Assembly: GCA_029243385.1 (NCBI GenBank)
Contig: JAQWSC010000007.1
Span: forward strand, 1-64,000
Origin: Flavobacteriaceae bacterium
GTDB taxonomy: Bacteria; Bacteroidota; Bacteroidia; Flavobacteriales; Flavobacteriaceae
DNA length: 64,000 nucleotides
Reading direction: 5' to 3'
Below, in pieces: positions 12,759-22,183 of the stretch (position 1 is its first letter; each line of letters begins with the position of its first letter). The notes beneath the pieces are model-generated. The model made no database searches. It was not told the origin of the DNA and saw only the letters and a list, made by a program, of their open reading frames with translations. A program made the position numbers and the translations under genes.

Positions 12759-13133
12759 TTACTTTTTAGGTCGTTTGGCTCCGTATTTTGAGCGGCGCTG
12801 AAGGCGACCTTCAACTCCTGCTGTATCGAGTGCGCCTCGAACAATGTGATAACGAACTCCTGGTAAATCTTTAACCCTACCGCCTCGTACCAATACTATC
12901 GAGTGTTCTTGGAGATTGTGTCCTTCGCCGGGTATATATGCGTTCACTTCATTTCCATTGGTTAACCGAACACGAGCAACTTTACGCATTGCTGAATTTG
13001 GTTTTTTGGGTGTTGTAGTGTACACACGCGTGCAGACACCGCGTCTCTGGGGACACGAATCCAAGGCAGCCGATTTACTCTTCTTGGTAATTTTGACTCT
13101 TCCTTTGCGTACTAATTGTGAAATAGTTGGCAT
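12759..13133 (-). CDS. rpsL: 30S ribosomal protein S12
   Basis: S12 is the decoding-centre protein. The 124-residue product starts [19 protein letters not shown] and has the conserved loops [14 protein letters not shown] and [16 protein letters not shown]. The lysine of TPKKPNSA and the lysine of RVKDLPG, sites where streptomycin-resistance substitutions occur in other bacteria, are both present. This is the first gene of the ribosomal run; a Bacteroidota-type promoter lies 44-74 nt upstream of its ATG. Confidence 0.97.
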
Positions 13134-13207: not shown

Positions 13208-13346
13208 CCAATTTCTGAATTTTTCAGTGACTGTTTTTTGCAGACCGCGTGCTTTGCTTTTTTTTAATCGTTTTTATTACCAAAATTCATCCTTTCGATC
13301 CTTCTATACTTGGCCTTCAAAAAAAATATGTTGGATTCCAAACGAA

Positions 13347-15041
13347 ATGCCTGTATTTTTACGTTTTACAGTCAAACTATTGAAGTTGAAAAACACCTTT
13401 GTAAGCTTGTTGATTATCGGAATTTGCGGGTTGCTAAGCACTCCTCTTGCCGGGCAATCTCAGCGACTCGAAATTGAGGTAATTGACAAGCCCATTCCTG
13501 TCGCCTTGCAAGCTTGGAACGATCCACTAATAATACGCTCTCCAAAAACAGTAAATAGCACATTGGATTCGTTGTCAAAACAACTTCAAATAATGGGGTT
13601 TTTAGAGGCTGCTTTCGCTACACCTCAACAAATAAATGATTCCTTGTACCGCACTCAATTGGTAGCAGGTCAAAAAATAACGTCAGTTCGCTTAACACCC
13701 TCACAATCGATTCCTGAAAAGCTCGCATCTTTGCTTCCCGCTCAAAAAATTCCTTTTTCTGACACGGCAAGTTTATTAAACCAACTTGTAGCTGCCTCCG
13801 CACAAATCGGGTATCCGTTTGCTTCTTTTGAGTTGCATCCTATCGAGCGGAATGGAGAAGCATTAAAGGCACGATTGGATATTGATTTGGGGGAACTCCG
13901 CACCCTCGATGCCCTAAAAATTGAAGGTTACGATCGATTTCCTGATGCGTTCTTAAAACAAACGGGGCGTTTTTTTCTAAAAAAACCTTTTCAGGAACGT
14001 TCCCTACAAAAAATACATCAATCGTTTAAAAAACTACCTTTTGTAACTGCCATTCGTGATCCGGAAGTCTTGTTTGCCAAAGACAGTACGATTGCTTATT
14101 TGTATTTTAAACGAAAAGCCAACAACTATGTTGAAGGGTTTTTGGGCTTTGAATCCAAGAACTCGGGAGGCATTCGTTTCAATGGAAATTTGGTAGTTCG
14201 ATTGCTCAACAATTTGCACCAAGGAGAACAATTGAACTTGTTGTATAAAAATGACGGAGATCTTCAACGCAATTTTTCGATAAGCCTACAATGGCCTTAT
14301 GTGTTTCGATCCCCTATTGGAACAGAAACAGGATTGGAGATTTTTACCCGAGACAGCAGTTTTGTCACATCCAAGCAGTTTTTGAAACTGTCTGTTCCCT
14401 TGCGACAAGACCTTCGAGTGTGGACAGGAATCGAATTTTTTAGTGGTAGCTCGTTAGAAATCACTCCTACCCTGCCTTCGTTTCAAAAAACCTCTTTTAG
14501 ACTTGAAATTGAAAAAGAATTTGCAGCTTACGATGCGTACTTTGCTACTCGTTCGTATATAAAAGGACAGGCCGCATGGGGAAAACGCACAGTAGATTCC
14601 CAGCAAGCATCGCAATACCACTTGGGACTGTCGTCTCAATACATCCTTTCGCTATCCGATCGTTCGCAGTACATTGCTCGACTGGGCGGACAAGCTCTTG
14701 TTGGCGATGTACTCTATATCCATGAACTGTTTCGCTTGGGAGGCATTCTTTCGTTGCGTGGTTTTTCGGACAATCAATTCCAAACCGATCGTTATCTTCT
14801 TCTCAATCAAGAGTATCGTTACCTTCTTTCGCCCGAAAGTTATTTGTTGGGGTTGGTGGACAACGCTTTGGTACACGATGAAACTTTGGGCAACCAATGG
14901 CTCTTAGGAGTCGGAGTAGGACTGGGTATTCGAACTGGCGGTGGGATGCTACAACTGCAATATGTATTGGGAAAAACACCGCAACTTCCCTTTTCGTTCA
15001 AAGATGCCAAGGTGCATTTGCGCTTTAGCAGCTTTTTTTAA
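13347..15041 (+). CDS. Omp85-family outer-membrane protein, TamA/BamA-like
   Basis: This is probably an outer-membrane barrel protein of the Omp85 superfamily, whose members insert or translocate proteins across the outer membrane. From the ATG at 13347 the product has 564 residues. It has a signal peptide (basic start, then VSLLIIGICGLLSTPLAG), about three POTRA-like units (roughly residues 30-240), then a C-terminal barrel. The loop-6 hallmark LRGF is at residues 470-473 and the chain ends in Phe. The open frame extends 40 codons upstream to 13227, but those residues do not look like a signal peptide. It is divergent from rpsL. Its short POTRA region favours TamA-like over BamA; the substrate is unknown. 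Confidence 0.8.
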   Translation: MPVFLRFTVKLLKLKNTFVSLLIIGICGLLSTPLAGQSQRLEIEVIDKPIPVALQAWNDPLIIRSPKTVNSTLDSLSKQLQIMGFLEAAFATPQQINDSLYRTQLVAGQKITSVRLTPSQSIPEKLASLLPAQKIPFSDTASLLNQLVAASAQIGYPFASFELHPIERNGEALKARLDIDLGELRTLDALKIEGYDRFPDAFLKQTGRFFLKKPFQERSLQKIHQSFKKLPFVTAIRDPEVLFAKDSTIAYLYFKRKANNYVEGFLGFESKNSGGIRFNGNLVVRLLNNLHQGEQLNLLYKNDGDLQRNFSISLQWPYVFRSPIGTETGLEIFTRDSSFVTSKQFLKLSVPLRQDLRVWTGIEFFSGSSLEITPTLPSFQKTSFRLEIEKEFAAYDAYFATRSYIKGQAAWGKRTVDSQQASQYHLGLSSQYILSLSDRSQYIARLGGQALVGDVLYIHELFRLGGILSLRGFSDNQFQTDRYLLLNQEYRYLLSPESYLLGLVDNALVHDETLGNQWLLGVGVGLGIRTGGGMLQLQYVLGKTPQLPFSFKDAKVHLRFSSFF

Positions 15042-15186
15042 CGGTATCTTCTTAAAGTTTTATTAAAGTTTTCTTAAATCTTTGTAAGAAAAAACTGATT
15101 TGCTTTTGTCCGAATCCACGTAAAAAACGTCATGTTTCATCACGAAATGGTATAGTCATTAAATATTTGCAAATACTGTTAAAAAT

Positions 15187-15208
15187 TTAACTTTTTATTA
15201 GTGTTTTG
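15187..15208 (+). promoter_or_regulatory. Promoter-like element with TTA repeats 11 bp apart
   Basis: TTAAC at 15187 and TTAG at 15198 are spaced 11 bp, followed by TTTG at 15205-15208. The element closely resembles the one directly upstream of susC (16510-16532). It probably once drove the gene whose damaged remainder follows. The -7 octamer is GTGTTTTG, which misses the TA of the consensus. Confidence 0.4.
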
Positions 15209-16251
15209 AATGGTTTTATCACAGAAAGGGTTGGGGATGCCAAGGCATATTTCAATCTTTATACCACATTAATCACTCTAATGTTTCTGTATCAAAAATA
15301 GAGGTTGAGTCTGGAGGTAGTAAAGCTGACGCCTCATTGAGTGAAGGTAAAGCTAGTTTTAATTCTTCTTTGCTTGGGGAGCTTGAGGGTAAAGAAAGTA
15401 TAGAATTTACAATAGATGCAACGCTTTCAAATGGAAAACCTTACAAAAAAACATTTAAAGTTTCTATTTTAAGTGTTCTAGGAATAAAGAAAGCGTTAGG
15501 CGCAATTACCTACAATTCTTCTGTAGAAGACACACTTGCTTTTGAGACAACAACCAATTCAGCAACAGTCAATTCTGTAACCCTAGATTGGAAGAAGAAC
15601 AAAGCAGGAACATATGCTAAAACAAGCCCAAGAGGAGGAGCCCTAGAAGTAGAAGGTGATGAAATTAGATTTGTAAATGTTGACAATACCACATATGGAT
15701 ACGGTCTGAAAATTAAAGACACACTCTATTACAGATTTATTGCAACAAACGGAGCCCTTAAAGACACCTTAATAGTGACGTTACCTGTAAACAGTCAGGT
15801 TATTGAAGCCTATAAAACTACAAGTGTTTATTCAGACATACTTAAAAATAAGCTAAACCTTAACACAAACACTCATTACGCAGACAGTGACGTTGATGGA
15901 AAAGGTGAGATTGTATTTAAAGACGCTACATCAGGATTTGAAAAAGAGGGTACTACCGCAATCGATTTTGTTAAAGTTGGTAGCTTGTCCTCTGAAGAAG
16001 ATCATGTGAATACAAGCGATAAGTTTTACAAGGAAAAGGATTTACTTGCAATTATGAGGGTTTATGATGCTGGGACAAAAACAACATCGGTTGATAATCC
16101 AATTAAAGATGACTTGTACGTGTATAAGATCACACGTGATTCGAAAACAACATATGGTTTAATTAAAATTGGAGATATCGAGACGGTTACTGTCAATTCT
16201 AATACTTCAACTATACTAAATATTGAATTTGGTGAAGGAGAAATTAAATAG
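15202..16251 (+). pseudogene. 5'-truncated ORF for a secreted/surface protein of unknown function
   Basis: An open frame runs from the codon after the TAG at 15199-15201 to the TAA at 16251. The first in-frame ATG comes only about 250 codons before... the late segment LLAIMRVYDAG, and the only plausible early start is a TTG at 15337 without a signal peptide. The residues read as soluble, beta-rich, Thr/Ser/Asp-rich sequence (for example KIEVESGGSKADASLSEG), as in Bacteroidota exported lipoproteins with Ig-like modules. I do not recognise the family. Upstream, a promoter-like element is followed by a short out-of-frame ATG ORF (15210 to about 15272), so the signal-peptide end appears deleted or frameshifted. 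A strong terminator follows. Confidence 0.55.
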
Positions 16252-16293
16252 ATTAATTTAAATTCGTCGAAATTTGAGAATTAATGGAATAGC

Positions 16294-16325
16294 AAAAAAC
16301 CCCGCCTTATCGGCGGGGTTTTTTT
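16294..16325 (+). terminator. Intrinsic terminator after the truncated ORF
   Basis: A perfect stem CCCCGCC (16300-16306) / GGCGGGG (16312-16318) with loop TTATC is flanked by an A run on the left and a run of seven T on the right, so it can work in either direction. It isolates the ORF before it from susC. Confidence 0.9.
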
Positions 16326-16500
16326 ATGGATCGTTCCAAATTATGGATCTGACAAAATAAGCTTTAAAAAATGTGAATTCAATAGTTGGATACTCAAGGA
16401 TTCAGGAGCGTATTTTTGTTATAAAAAGAGGTTTTCAATACATTCATCGTTATAAATAACAGCTTTTGCTATATATTTATTTACTATTACAACACTTTTT

Positions 16501-16532
16501 TTTGGATAGTTAACATTTTATTAACATCTTTG
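16501..16532 (+). promoter_or_regulatory. Putative susC promoter with 11-bp phased TTAA
   Basis: TTTG at 16501-16504 is separated by 20 nt from CATCTTTG at 16525-16532, one mismatch from TAnnTTTG. Within the spacer and box, TTAA occurs at 16510 and 16521, exactly 11 bp apart. The leader to the ATG at 16561 would be about 20 nt. Confidence 0.55.
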
Positions 16533-16560
16533 TGTATTAACAAATTAATAACAATTCTAT

Positions 16561-19500
16561 ATGAAAACTAAATTTATTCAAATTTTAACATTATCATTTA
16601 TGATGATGTTTCAATGGAGTATGGCCCAGCAAGTTGTTTCGGGTACAGTGACCGATGCCGATGGCATCCCGCTTCCTGGAGCCACTGTTGTAGTTCAGGG
16701 AACCACAAACGGGACCTCAACGGACTTTGATGGGAACTACTCAATCAGTGCTTCACAAGGAGACGTTCTTGCGGTAAGTTTTGTTGGATACGGTGCTGCT
16801 TCTGTTGAAGTTGGTGCTTCTGCAACAATAAACGTTACCCTTTCTGCTGACAACCAACTTAACGAAGTCGTTGTAACAGCATTGGGTATTACTCGAGAGA
16901 AAAAATCTTTGGGATATGCAGTACAAACCATTAACGGTGACGCTATTGGTGATGTTCAGGCATTCAACCCTGTAGAGTCCTTAAGTGGAGAAGTTGCAGG
17001 TTTGGATATCCAATCCTTTAACACCATGGGAGGTTCTGCCAACGTGGTTATTCGTGGGTATTCTTCGATTTCAGGATCCAACCAAGCGTTGTTTGTTGTC
17101 GATGGAACCCCCATTAGCAACTCTACACCAAACAGCGCTGAGGTTTCGGCAGGTCAAGGTGGATTTGACTACGGAAACGCTGCTATGGACATTAATCCAG
17201 AAGACATTGCTTCGGTATCGGTATTGAAAGGTGCAGCAGCATCTGCGCTTTACGGATCAAGAGCTTCCAACGGTGCGATTTTAATTACTACCAAAAAAGG
17301 GAAAGTTAAAAGTTCAGGTCTTGGAATTACTGTAAGTTCACAGTTAATTATGGGTACTGTTGACGAAAGCACACTTCCTTCGTATCAATACGAGTACGGT
17401 CAAGGATATGGTGGAAATGCCGATGGATACTATTTAGATCCATGGGATGGTACAGCAGTTGTAAACACTACAGATGATGCCTCTTTTGGTCCTAAATTAA
17501 CCGGTCAAGAAATTCACCACTGGTACAACATGATTCCTGAATTAACGGATTTATACCAAAAAACAGCTCCTGACAATCCTGGCGCACCCGCTGGAACAGT
17601 TGCTGGCTTCTTTAACACACAAGTTACTTCGACCAACTCGGTTGCTTTCGAAGGGGCCAACGATTCGGGGAACTTTAGATTGCGCTACACCAACGCTAGT
17701 ATTTCAGGTATTTTACCAAACGCATCTATTGACAGAAACTCTTTCAACTTTTCAGGATCTCAAATGCTGAGAGATGACTTAAGAGTATCAGCTGGAATTA
17801 CCTATACAAACACAGATGCTACTGGCCGATACGGTACAGGGTATGATGGTCAAAACGTATTCCAAGGATTTAGACAATGGTGGGGCACTACCATTGATTT
17901 GAACATGGATAAAAAAGTATATGATCAAACCGGAGGAAATTATTCGTGGAACATGTTTGGAATGGATACCTCAGGAACTACTCCTGACACGACTCCTCAC
18001 TACTTCAACAATCCATACTGGATGAGAGATCATATGTATAACACAGACAATCGCAATCGCTACTTCGGCAACTTCGCGATGGATTACGAATTGAATGAGA
18101 ACATCAAGCTCTTAGGGCGTGCTTCATTTGATCAATACGACTTTGTAAAAGAAGAGCGAATTGATGTTGGCTCTGTTGATGTTTCGAGATACTATGTAAG
18201 TCACCGAACCGCTTCTGAGCGTAATTATGACTTCATAGCCTCCTACAACAAAGATATCAATGACAGAGTTAATATTGATGGAAACATTGGTTGGAACCTT
18301 CGTGTTCAAAAATGGGATTATATGACCGCTGAAACCAATGGTGGACTTAACATTCCTGGGTTGTATGCATTGTCCAATTCGGCAAATCCCATTACATCAA
18401 GTGATGTATCCAATTACGATGCAACCAAAAAGGTTGATGGAATCTATGGACGTTTAAGCGTAGGTATTGATGACACCTATTTTGTGGAAGCTACGTATCG
18501 ATCTGACAGATCTTCAGCTCTTCCTAAAGCCAACAACCGATACAACTATCCTTCTATTTCAGGATCAGTTATTTTATCAAATTTATTTGATTCTTCAATC
18601 GTTGACTTTGCCAAGTTCCGTGCAAATTATGCGGAAGTAGGGGCTGATACAGATCCTTATAGAGTGTTTCAATCCTATGTGTTGGTCGCTGGATTTAATG
18701 GTCAACCACAAGCAACAAACCCTTCAACATTTAACAACGAGAATCTAAAAGCAGAATCTACCAAAGAATATGAATTTGGATTGGAGTTTGACTTGTACAA
18801 AAATCGTTTGGGTCTTGATATTTCTGTTTATGACAGAACAACTGAAGATTTAATTACTCCATTGCAAATATCCAATGCTACGGGTGGAGATGCATTTTAT
18901 GTAAATGCAGGTTCTGTTCAAAACAAAGGTGTTGAATTGGTATTGAATGCCAACCCTGTTCGTCTTGCAGACTTCAACTGGGACATTACTGCCAACTGGT
19001 CAACATACAGTTCTGAAGTTATTGAGCTTGGAAAAGATGCTAGTGGTAATGAAATTGAGTATTTAAATTTTGCTGATCTTCAGGGAGGTATTTCTATCGG
19101 TGCTAAAAAAGGAGATGAGTACGGTGTTATTAGAGGTACAGATTTTATATACCATGAAAATGGACAAAAAATCAAAACTTCTGCAGGTGCTTATGAAAAC
19201 TCAGATTCTAACACCGAAGTTCTTGGATCTATCATTCCTGATTGGACAGGGGGTATCAAAAATAAGTTTACTTACAAAAATTTATCTGCAAGTTTCTTAA
19301 TTGACATTCAAAAAGGAGGAGATGTATTCTCATTGGATGCTCGTTATTCTTCTTTAACAGGTATTTTGGCAGAATCTACGCGACTCAATGCAAATGGAGT
19401 TTCTATTCGTGAGCCCGTTGCTGATGGTGGTGGAGTTCTACTTCCAGGTGTAAACGCTGATGGTACGCCAAACGAAGTTTACGGAGAGGCTGGAGATTAT

Positions 19501-19794
19501 ACAACTGTTGAAGGATACGTTTATATGCCTGCAGCAAACTATGTGTACGACGCTTCATTTGTAAAATTGAGAGAAGTATCTATTGGTTATGCGTTTCCAG
19601 ACAACCTAATTGAAAGAACATTTATCGAAAGTGCTAATGTTTCGTTAATAGGTAGAAACCTTTGGATTATTCACAGCAATGTACCTTACTCGGATCCTGA
19701 GGCAGGTTTATCAGCTGGAAACATTCAAGGATACCAGTCTGGTGCCTACCCAAATATCAAAGAAATTGGGTTGAGTCTTAAACTCCAGTTTTAA
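16561..19794 (+). CDS. SusC/RagA-family TonB-linked outer-membrane transporter
   Basis: This is an outer-membrane TonB-dependent transporter that imports oligomeric nutrients captured by its SusD partner. The 1077-residue product has a signal peptide cleaved near A22 (QWSMAQQ). A carboxypeptidase-regulatory-like domain follows (about 25-105, VSGTVTDADGIPLPGATVVV), then a TonB-box-like NEVVVTALG segment. The plug (about 115-245) contains GYSSISGSNQALFVVDGTPI and LKGAAASALYGSRASNGAIL, and a 22-strand barrel follows. It lies 23 nt upstream of the SusD gene. No glycoside hydrolase, sulfatase or sensor is next to it, so the substrate cannot be read from context; peptides are as likely as glycans. 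Confidence 0.95.
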   Translation: MKTKFIQILTLSFMMMFQWSMAQQVVSGTVTDADGIPLPGATVVVQGTTNGTSTDFDGNYSISASQGDVLAVSFVGYGAASVEVGASATINVTLSADNQLNEVVVTALGITREKKSLGYAVQTINGDAIGDVQAFNPVESLSGEVAGLDIQSFNTMGGSANVVIRGYSSISGSNQALFVVDGTPISNSTPNSAEVSAGQGGFDYGNAAMDINPEDIASVSVLKGAAASALYGSRASNGAILITTKKGKVKSSGLGITVSSQLIMGTVDESTLPSYQYEYGQGYGGNADGYYLDPWDGTAVVNTTDDASFGPKLTGQEIHHWYNMIPELTDLYQKTAPDNPGAPAGTVAGFFNTQVTSTNSVAFEGANDSGNFRLRYTNASISGILPNASIDRNSFNFSGSQMLRDDLRVSAGITYTNTDATGRYGTGYDGQNVFQGFRQWWGTTIDLNMDKKVYDQTGGNYSWNMFGMDTSGTTPDTTPHYFNNPYWMRDHMYNTDNRNRYFGNFAMDYELNENIKLLGRASFDQYDFVKEERIDVGSVDVSRYYVSHRTASERNYDFIASYNKDINDRVNIDGNIGWNLRVQKWDYMTAETNGGLNIPGLYALSNSANPITSSDVSNYDATKKVDGIYGRLSVGIDDTYFVEATYRSDRSSALPKANNRYNYPSISGSVILSNLFDSSIVDFAKFRANYAEVGADTDPYRVFQSYVLVAGFNGQPQATNPSTFNNENLKAESTKEYEFGLEFDLYKNRLGLDISVYDRTTEDLITPLQISNATGGDAFYVNAGSVQNKGVELVLNANPVRLADFNWDITANWSTYSSEVIELGKDASGNEIEYLNFADLQGGISIGAKKGDEYGVIRGTDFIYHENGQKIKTSAGAYENSDSNTEVLGSIIPDWTGGIKNKFTYKNLSASFLIDIQKGGDVFSLDARYSSLTGILAESTRLNANGVSIREPVADGGGVLLPGVNADGTPNEVYGEAGDYTTVEGYVYMPAANYVYDASFVKLREVSIGYAFPDNLIERTFIESANVSLIGRNLWIIHSNVPYSDPEAGLSAGNIQGYQSGAYPNIKEIGLSLKLQF

Positions 19795-19817: not shown

Positions 19818-21281
19818 ATGAAAAAAATAAAATTTATATTTATTACAATAGCAGCCTTAACAATGGTTGCTTGTACTTCAGATGCTGATTATGAGGATTT
19901 AAATAAAGATCCAAACAATCCTGTTGAAGCGAGTGCAGAGTCTTTATTCTCTGCTGCTCAAAAGACGCTCGTTGACGAAGTCAATGACATCGATTACAGA
20001 GATGCACCCTTTATGTTGTATGCACAATACGCGCAACAAACAACGTACACGGATGAATCTCAGTATGACATGAAGAATCGTGGAATACCTGGAGAAATTT
20101 TTTCTACGGTGTATCAAAATATTTTATATGACTTAAAAGATGCTGCCTTATTGGTAAGTGATGATGAGTTCAAATCTGCTCAAATTGAGTTGCTAGCAGT
20201 GTATGCTTGGCAATATCTTGTTGACAATTTTGGAAATGTTCCTTATTCTGAAGCACTCAAAGTTATTGGCGAAGATCAAATTTTAGCGCCTAAATACGAT
20301 GATGCAGCGACCATTTACGCTGATCTAATGAGCAGAGCCGTTGCAGCCAAAGTGATGCTAGGGGGTTCAGGTGACGGATTTACTAATGCCGATTTTGTTC
20401 TCGCAGGAGACAAAGATGCTTGGTTAAAATTTGCCAACTCGCTAATTATTAAAATTGGTGTTAGAGCAACTGGAAATACCTTTAAAGCTGAAGTAGAAGC
20501 TGCAGCTAGTGGAGCGCTTGGAAGCAATGCGGACAATGTTACTATGGATTACGAAGGTAGTACTCCCAACACCAACCCATCGTGGTTGGAGTTAGTGCAA
20601 AGTGGTAGAAATGACTATGTTCTTGGTAAGCCTTTTGTTGACGCATTGATTTCAGCAGACCTAGAAGACCCTCGTCAAGATGTTTTCTTTGACCCTGAAA
20701 GCAAAATGGTTATTGACACATTATCCAATGGTGATTTAGTAGAAAACTACAAAGGTGGCGTTATTGGTCAAAAAAGTGCTTGGTCTGCACATTCTAAACT
20801 AGGAACCAAACTTTTTGATCCTACCTTTAGAGGTGTCTTGTTTGACTTCGCAGAAATTAGTTTCTACCTTGCTGACGCTTCGGCTAGAGGATGGGCTGTA
20901 GGAGGCGATGCGCCAACGCATTACGCCAATGGAATCAAAGCTAGTTTTACCGATTGGGGGTTAACAGAAGCCGCAGCTGATGCCTATTTATTGAAGCCTA
21001 AAGTTGCCTATGCAACGGCAGACGGAACAGCAGATGAGAAAATCGGAAAACAATTATGGATCGCTATGTTCAATAGAGGTTTTGAGGGATGGACCGCTTA
21101 CCGTCGCTACGGAGGAGCTCCTTTAACACAATCCGAACTTGCAGAAGATGATTTAAAGGACGTTCCAAGACGTTTGACTTATCCTGTTGTAGAACAAACT
21201 AGAAATCCTTCAAACTACACTGCTGCTGCATCAGCAATAGGTGATGACAAGCAAAGTACCAAAATATTCTGGGACAACTAG
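19818..21281 (+). CDS. SusD/RagB-family surface lipoprotein
   Basis: This is the surface-exposed substrate-binding partner that forms the lid over the SusC barrel. The 487-residue product has a lipoprotein signal peptide with lipobox MVAC (Cys19), then the SusD start DLNKDPNNPVEAS. A helical TPR-like body follows with LAVYAWQYLVDNFGNVPYSE, and a C-terminal FNRGFEGWTAYRRYGG segment. The pattern fits the SusD-like subgroup often seen beside peptide or unknown-substrate SusC proteins. It is co-transcribed with susC and ended by a strong terminator. Confidence 0.93.
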   Translation: MKKIKFIFITIAALTMVACTSDADYEDLNKDPNNPVEASAESLFSAAQKTLVDEVNDIDYRDAPFMLYAQYAQQTTYTDESQYDMKNRGIPGEIFSTVYQNILYDLKDAALLVSDDEFKSAQIELLAVYAWQYLVDNFGNVPYSEALKVIGEDQILAPKYDDAATIYADLMSRAVAAKVMLGGSGDGFTNADFVLAGDKDAWLKFANSLIIKIGVRATGNTFKAEVEAAASGALGSNADNVTMDYEGSTPNTNPSWLELVQSGRNDYVLGKPFVDALISADLEDPRQDVFFDPESKMVIDTLSNGDLVENYKGGVIGQKSAWSAHSKLGTKLFDPTFRGVLFDFAEISFYLADASARGWAVGGDAPTHYANGIKASFTDWGLTEAAADAYLLKPKVAYATADGTADEKIGKQLWIAMFNRGFEGWTAYRRYGGAPLTQSELAEDDLKDVPRRLTYPVVEQTRNPSNYTAAASAIGDDKQSTKIFWDN

Positions 21282-21457: not shown

Positions 21458-22183
21458 ATGAAAAAAGAAACACTTATTTACGGCATTCGAGCAGTAATCG
21501 AAGCAGTAGAAGCTGGTAATTCAATTGATAAAGTATTTGTACAAAGAGGACTGAAAGGAACCCTTTCTCACGAACTCGTCAAACTCCTAAAAAGCAAAGA
21601 AATTGTATTTTCAATGGTTCCTATTGAAAAACTCAATCGTTTAACAATGTACAATCATCAAGGTGTAGTCGCTACCATATCCCCTATTCAGCTCCACAAT
21701 TTGGACGCTTTACTAGATCAAGCTCCCGAAAACCCATTGTTTCTTATTTTGGACCAAATCTCGGATGTTCGGAACTTTGGCGCTATCATTCGAACCGCAT
21801 CCTGTACAGGTGTTTCCGGAATTATCGTACAAGCAAGCGGAGGAGCTCCTATCAACGGAGATGTAATTAAAACCTCAGCAGGTGCTGTGTTTAATGTTCC
21901 TATATGCAGAGTAAGCCATATCAAAGACGCTTTGTATCATTTACAGGCCAGCGACATACAAATTGTCGCTGCCTCAGAAAAAGCAACTAATTTCCTCTAT
22001 GACTGCGAATTGTCAAAACCTACTGCCCTGGTAATGGGTTCGGAAGAAAAAGGAATTGCTTCCTCTGTGCTAAAATTATGCGATGTACAAGCAAAATTAC
22101 CCATGACAGGCACCATTGCCTCACTGAATGTCTCGGTAGCTTGTGGTGCTTTTTTGTACGAAGCGATAAGACAGCGCGCATAA
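21458..22183 (+). CDS. rlmB: 23S rRNA (guanosine-2'-O-)-methyltransferase, RlmB type (TrmH/SpoU family)
   Basis: This is a SpoU-family enzyme that transfers a methyl group from SAM to a ribose 2'-OH, in RlmB on a 23S rRNA guanosine. The 241-residue product has the N-terminal substrate-binding domain (YGIRAVIEAVEAG). The knotted catalytic domain shows motif 1 DVRNFGAIIRTASCTG (conserved Asn and Arg), motif 2 VMGSEEKGI and motif 3 MTGTIASLNVSVACGAFLYE. rarA follows after 37 nt on the same strand. The exact target could also be a tRNA, but the architecture is that of RlmB. Confidence 0.88.
   Translation: MKKETLIYGIRAVIEAVEAGNSIDKVFVQRGLKGTLSHELVKLLKSKEIVFSMVPIEKLNRLTMYNHQGVVATISPIQLHNLDALLDQAPENPLFLILDQISDVRNFGAIIRTASCTGVSGIIVQASGGAPINGDVIKTSAGAVFNVPICRVSHIKDALYHLQASDIQIVAASEKATNFLYDCELSKPTALVMGSEEKGIASSVLKLCDVQAKLPMTGTIASLNVSVACGAFLYEAIRQRA

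Follow-up and report, generated by a model that had tools for sequence, protein, structure and literature searches.

A probable core promoter and a conserved mRNA hairpin at the rpsL-linked susC of Flavobacteriaceae

The repeats at 16510 and 16521 of the DNA analysed here, a 64,000-nt stretch from a Flavobacteriaceae bacterium (hereafter the window), probably belong to the core promoter of a susCD operon that occupies a fixed chromosomal site beside rpsL. We put a probability of about 0.72 on the whole reading, in which the element at 15187 would be the decayed promoter of a lost first susCDE operon, the repeats at 15052 would be due to chance, and the conserved unit of relatives would extend through the leader into a hairpin that most likely tunes translation.

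The outer membrane of flavobacteria is dominated by SusCD importers and, to our knowledge, little is understood of what determines their amount in the absence of Shine-Dalgarno sequences. At the locus described here, promoter, leader and an intragenic RNA stem of one gene are fixed across the family while the remaining protein varies. The rpsL-linked susC lends itself readily to reporter assays of the -28/-18 promoter blocks, and its stem is a clear RNA element amenable to synonymous mutation. The features of the window are collected in Table 1.

Table 1. Features of the window around the rpsL-linked susC. Promoter positions are numbered with the G of TTTG set to -5.
Feature	Coordinates	Strand	Basis or comment
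rpsL (S12)	12759..13133	-	PF00164; anchor of the locus
BamA/ShlB-like outer membrane barrel	13227..15041	+	PF03865 and TIGR03303 weak, both below cut-off
Three TTAA 11 bp apart and TCTTTG	15052..15084	+	TTG at -33 absent; matrix score for a susC promoter at chance level
Probable relic susC-type promoter	15187..15208	+	Second-ranked site of the window; among the 4 pattern matches of the genome
Probable susE-like lipoprotein gene, third in a SusCD operon, truncated at its 5' end	15202..16251	+	Relatives in genomes G004 and G017
Putative core promoter of susC	16502..16532	+	Best window match to the relatives' matrix; conserved layout
TTG of susC promoter	16502-16504	+	-35..-33
TTAAC of susC promoter	16510-16514	+	-27..-23
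TTA of susC promoter	16521-16523	+	-16..-14; 11 bp on from TTAAC
-7 box CATCTTTG of susC promoter	16525-16532	+	Ends in TTTG
susC leader	16533..16560	+	Predicted transcription start 4-5 nt past TTTG (spacing from PMC6847099)
susC (SusC/RagA TonB-linked receptor)	16561..19794	+	TIGR04056 (583.6 bits), PF07715, PF13715
mRNA hairpin in signal-peptide codons	16587..16610	+	Arms 16587-16596 and 16601-16610; 4-nt loop
susD (SusD-like_2)	19818..21281	+	PF12771
rlmB	21458..22183	+	TIGR00186; downstream anchor

Conservation of the promoter at the rpsL-linked locus

The promoter layout was searched for in 100 family genomes. A strict pattern, consisting of the layout and the following CTAATTC, gave 54 matches in 50 of the 100 genomes, and the reversed pattern gave none. 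The window's own genome has no strict match because CTAATTC is absent. Among the matches listed (30 loci), each lay 13-15 nt before the start of a SusC whose N terminus reads M[KR][ST]KF or nearly so.

We used S12 as an anchor to avoid a motif-based choice of loci. S12 was found in 93 of the 100 genomes; with the window's own locus and two at contig edges left out, 90 loci remained, and in 79 of them S12 is adjacent to a SusC ORF of 700 aa or longer (RlmB within the stretch in 45 of the 79, a BamA-like gene in 47). RCTAATTC precedes 61 of the 79 first SusC genes and 16 of the 21 later ones. A loose repeat test was passed by 64 of the 79 first genes and failed by 15.

The promoter alignment comprised 70 of the 79 first SusC genes plus the window's own, nine having been omitted for lack of a TAATT-like leader. 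TTG, TTAAC, TTA and TTTG are near-invariant in it, and the segment from TTAAC to TTTTG is ungapped in 67 of the 70 relatives; the three gapped rows were omitted from the scoring matrix, which is built from 67 relatives. The consensus reads AAAtTTT, about 11 nt, TTG, tTTtA, TTAAC, tTtTTA, TTA, tgA, tTTTTG, CTAATTCAAAT and the start codon. This layout recurs before the rpsL-linked susC in most of the 79 family loci.

The SusC proteins of the locus (L124-L143, L144-L233) vary widely, and their signal peptide and promoter are kept: median pair identity is 0.29 after residue 100 versus 0.75 in the signal peptide. The rpsL-linked locus resembles an expression site in which one importer can be swapped for another. 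Some CTAATTCAAAT boxes (among L270-L289) precede genes other than the locus SusC (for example at L275, L277, L288 and L289), and several others in that set precede no real ORF.

The core promoter of susC in the window

The initial annotation had described three promoter-like elements with TTA repeats 11 bp apart, and its positions were exact throughout: TTAA at 15052, 15063 and 15074 with TCTTTG at 15079-15084; TTAAC at 15187, TTAG at 15198 and TTTG at 15205-15208; and TTAA at 16510 and 16521 with TTTG at 16529-16532. The distance from the last TTA to TTTG is 7, 7 and 8 nt, also as described. The three elements differ in kind, comprising a putative susC core promoter, a probable relic and chance-level repeats.

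With the matrix from the 67 relatives, from which the window's own sequence was left out, the site at 16510 ranked first in the 64 kb (24.4 bits), and an nhmmer profile HMM recovered 16502-16531 at E 0.011. Over the 71 aligned rows, the TTG ending at -33 is present in 94-97%, A at -11 in 97% and TTTG in 89-99%. Position -12 is G in 79% of the rows and C in the window, which departs from TAHHTTTG at one of its six fixed positions. The susC promoter is therefore not a plain consensus promoter, since -12 is G or C and not the near-invariant T of Flavobacterium johnsoniae promoters.

In F. johnsoniae, AT-rich motifs at -18 and -28 are described as a general feature of promoters, and transcription begins 4-5 nt beyond the -7 element (PMC6847099). 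The TTAAC and TTA blocks of the window fit the description of these published -28 and -18 motifs, and we therefore infer that they are core promoter elements and that the susC at 16561 has its core promoter at 16502-16532. The resemblance to the sigma-ABfr promoters of that paper includes TTG near -33, A at -11, TTTG at -8 to -5, and AT-rich blocks that precede the -7 box by roughly one and two turns. The susC promoter differs from them in its G or C at -12 and in its blocks, which are held to TTAAC and TTA and, specifically at this gene, are conserved from genus to genus. Compared by motif description, it also resembles the F. psychrophilum sigma-A motifs SM1-SM3, which are variations on TAnnTTTG (PMC9723704).

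TTG, TTAAC, TTA and TTTG would most likely be read by RNA polymerase carrying the primary sigma factor of Bacteroidota. TTAAC would stand two helical turns and TTA one turn upstream of the -7 box, and the 11-bp step may align the polymerase contacts, or a bend, along the same helix face. The proposal of promoters with helical-turn phasing is supported at susC and before the damaged ORF, where the layout is conserved, and not at 15052.

The repeats in themselves are not unusual: TTAA-N7-TTAA occurs five times in the window versus 5.96 expected. Genome-wide, TTAA-N0..30-TTAA-N4-TTTG has 63 matches versus 130 for the reversed-pattern control, and the only one of the 63 with an 11-bp step, at which the genome has no peak, is the susC site. 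We compared the matrix scores with those of 200 shuffles of local intergenic DNA, which had a 95% point of 12.2 and a maximum of 17.1. The sites at 16510 and, less firmly, at 15187 are above chance; the element at 15052 scored 10.6, and by this measure its repeats are chance.

Promoter recognition versus a shared regulator

The same repeats had been proposed as a regulator site common to surface nutrient-uptake genes, with a call to look for enrichment before such genes. In the own genome, the 300 bp upstream of the 18 other plug-domain genes reached at most 10.9 bits, and TTAA[CG]-N6-TTA-N4/5-TTTG had four matches (two of them the sites at 15187 and 16510) versus five for the reversed control. 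In the 100 family genomes, a looser pattern had 111 matches by hand count, 54 of which are the strict-pattern susC sites. Outside those sites there were at most 57 matches versus about 125 for the reversed pattern (hand counts), and at least five of the further matches coincide with matches of model R1, described below, at susC-type starts. The layout is therefore not enriched outside the susC locus in either set, and a site shared by nutrient-uptake genes is not supported. Recognition as a core promoter would account for the TTA blocks better, because they lie near the published AT-rich -28 and -18 motifs.

A more specific version, in which the TTAAC direct repeats are the binding site of an OmpR/PhoB-type response regulator that switches susC, for example under phosphate starvation, is in our view highly unlikely. 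Boxes of the PhoB/PhoP type are TTAAC-like direct repeats with an 11-bp step, and the window's TTAACA-N5-TTAACA resembles a PhoP-type box in both respects. The susC repeats differ from such boxes in sitting inside the core promoter, between the -33 and -7 boxes, and in their second half-site, which is TTATGA or TTAAGA in most relatives. Phosphate-starvation-induced SusCD pairs do exist in Flavobacterium (PMC8115612), yet we dropped membership in a Pho regulon because relatives lack the second half-site and the layout is not in excess at other genes. With the core promoter preferred, the window's promoter-like repeats and its damaged ORF can be explained without a new regulator.

The element at 15187 and the truncated susE-like ORF

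The element at 15187 scored 21.2 bits, and the next best site in the window 13.2; this score allows one missing base, with a gap penalty that we set. One base is missing between its TTA and TTTTG; this puts a T at -11, a position occupied by A in 97% of the aligned rows. The support depends on allowing the missing base, as nhmmer gave the element only a non-significant E of 7.6. It lies 146 bp after the stop codon of the BamA-like gene, where relatives start susC at a median of 120 bp (47 loci).

The promoter-like element abuts an ORF that had no match in Pfam or NCBIfam and that is similar to a lipoprotein of genome G004 (E 6.4e-24, 32% identity over residues 8-337) and has a further relative in G017 (E 1.1e-8). 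Aligned with the G004 relative, it lacks the signal peptide and about 55 N-terminal residues. The G004 gene sits after SusC-SusD in the same rpsL-linked locus, and this particular susE-like gene was found in just three of the 100 genomes, the own genome included.

Most likely, the segment 15187-15208 is a promoter remnant of a SusCD operon that has been deleted. In the simplest history, one deletion would have removed the first susC, susD and the 5' part of susE, thereby leaving the promoter fused to the susE tail; this deletion is suggested by a single, 32% identical relative. Tandem SusC genes are common, two or more being present in 20 of the 79 loci. That 15187 is instead a chance AT-rich match, next to a truncated ORF of other origin, is possible but doubtful: the nhmmer result and the one-base gap speak for chance, whereas the element is the second-best site in 64 kb, above the maximum of the 200 shuffles, and stands at the distance from the BamA-like gene at which relatives begin susC.

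In a sister genome of the same genus (G001, locus L144), the BamA-like gene is 76% identical and is followed by neither a susC promoter nor a SusC. A SusD tail suspected by eye in the decayed sequence of this genome was not confirmed by tblastn with seven SusD proteins or by Pfam.

An mRNA hairpin in susC codons 9-15

Codons 9-15 of susC in relatives fold as AACGCUA-loop-UAGCGUU. At least six of the seven pairs are kept in 66 of the 79 unselected first SusC genes, and the hairpin is absent from the other 13. The tests below used 84 genes picked by signal-peptide type from 100 (67 of the 79 first genes and 17 of the 21 later ones), of which 78 keep at least six pairs; these tests are post hoc because the hairpin was found after looking. 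Resampling synonymous codons within each gene gave a mean z of -7.17, with p at or below 0.05 in 93% of genes, and eight control windows further down the gene gave mean z values from -0.85 to +0.04.

Overall, 94.5% of cells are paired, and both sides have changed at four pairs (19 cells). The covariation score of 0.251 (0.195 when shuffled) was reached by none of 500 shuffles, although relatedness among the genes inflates the covariation counts. Thr10 encoded by ACG pairs with GCG at codon 14 in 62 of the 84 genes, and ACA with GTG (valine) in seven. The hairpin is kept by compensatory changes, amino-acid changes included, far beyond what protein sequence and codon usage account for.

Wobble pairs also bear on whether the conserved molecule is RNA or DNA. 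The inverted repeat AACGCTA-N4-TAGCGTT lies just downstream of the promoter, as might a DNA operator palindrome for a repressor. G-U cells outnumber A-C cells by 58 to 5, a bias that could partly stem from codon constraints and that favours RNA, as a DNA palindrome would tolerate both alike. The same bias (16 to 3) recurred in 28 further phylum-sample genes with 172 of 196 cells paired, which were found with model R1, itself containing the hairpin. We consider a DNA operator barely credible. These 28 genes lie outside the training set, and other stems occur in them (AGUACU/AGUACU, AGUGCU/GGCACU and CACGCUA/UAGCGUG).

Model R1 matched 53 of 60 family genomes and 15 of 148 phylum-sample genomes. 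All 15 belong to the same family, with no match in the listed genomes of other families or in the remaining 113. Its 52.5-bit match in the window is by construction, because R1 was built with the window's own row.

The window's predicted stem has 10 bp, and its 5' arm begins at the same gene nucleotide as in relatives. Codon sampling gave p 0.07 and 0.04 in two runs, and taken alone this hairpin is weakly supported. Relatives have a second stem, UUGUGCAA/UUGCACAA, in codons 16-23 after the first hairpin (codon-sampling z about -3.9). We treated it as the weaker of the two because A-C cells (42) exceed G-U cells (29) and double changes are few. The window's mRNA lacks this second hairpin and the leader box.

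Rfam covariance models had no match at susC in five relative loci at E up to 1, and returned two tRNAs only from the window at gathering score; Flavo-1 and the other Rfam RNAs were thus rejected as the identity of the hairpin. A limited literature search found no earlier description of the susC leader or hairpin.

Leader and translation

By alignment, CTAATTCAAAT is present in the susC leader of relatives and missing from that of the window. The leader consensus has A at -3, -12 and -13, positions at which A is favourable for translation in F. johnsoniae (PMC6847099). Among susC genes, pairs with the same residue share the codon in 0.680 of cases over codons 1-23, versus 0.399-0.468 elsewhere. 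The first 30 coding nucleotides of relatives have no structure beyond chance (z 0.15), and the stem begins at +27. A pairing between the leader and codon 7, considered by eye, did not appear in the fold predicted from the alignment.

In relatives, the conserved unit would continue from the promoter through the leader CTAATTCAAAT into the hairpin of codons 9-15. The most likely role of this hairpin is to adjust either the start of the importer's translation or its early elongation. Placed just past an initiating ribosome, a stem could delay the earliest elongation rounds; alternatively, it could leave the start region accessible or serve as a binding site for a regulator. We lean slightly towards the presence of a new cis-acting mRNA element in the dominant, syntenic susC of the family Flavobacteriaceae; it would be composed of a conserved CUAAUUCAAAU leader and one or two hairpins in the signal-peptide codons. 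Selection for pairing would override codon choice and amino-acid identity there (Thr ACG/Ala GCG for Thr ACA/Val GTG), and the element would set translation of the importer independently of the freely exchanged barrel.

It is unlikely, by our estimate, that the conserved leader and start region are instead a target of small RNAs or of an RNA-binding protein. In Bacteroides, FopS sRNAs and RbpB act on susC mRNAs, the FopS sRNAs binding beside the start codon of susC homologs (PMC11697453), and the flavobacterial case is similar in involving the 5' end of susC mRNAs. The sequence conservation of CTAATTCAAAT and the retained synonymous codons would suit such a target. The conserved feature here differs in including an intragenic stem with compensatory changes; the stem itself is not a seed target because pairing and not the letters is conserved, and CTAATTCAAAT stands near the start codon mostly, but not only, at SusC.

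Genes around the rpsL-linked susC

The BamA/ShlB-like barrel gene is a neighbour retained in many relatives, and a RarA-type ATPase gene also lies near the window's susC, together with RlmB. SusCD proteins are discussed in a paper on the BAM complex of F. johnsoniae, where Fjoh_0403-0405 are named as the major SUS complex (PMC12611786). We rejected the window's SusC as a BAM subunit; the accessible portion of that paper gives no link to the locus.

A sigma-70 scan of the window gave eight promoter-like matches versus 6.7 expected, and a terminator scan gave no terminator-like match. A GC stem followed by a T run was spotted by eye only at about 16300-16325. The signal peptide of the window's SusC is MKTKFIQILTLSFMMMFQWSMAQ. 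From residue 1 to about 100, this SusC is closer to the locus type (0.55-0.80 with G005, by 40-residue windows), and further on it is closer to the SusC genes of another locus (L069, 0.6-0.9). It looks like a recombinant, with the crossing near residue 100-120.
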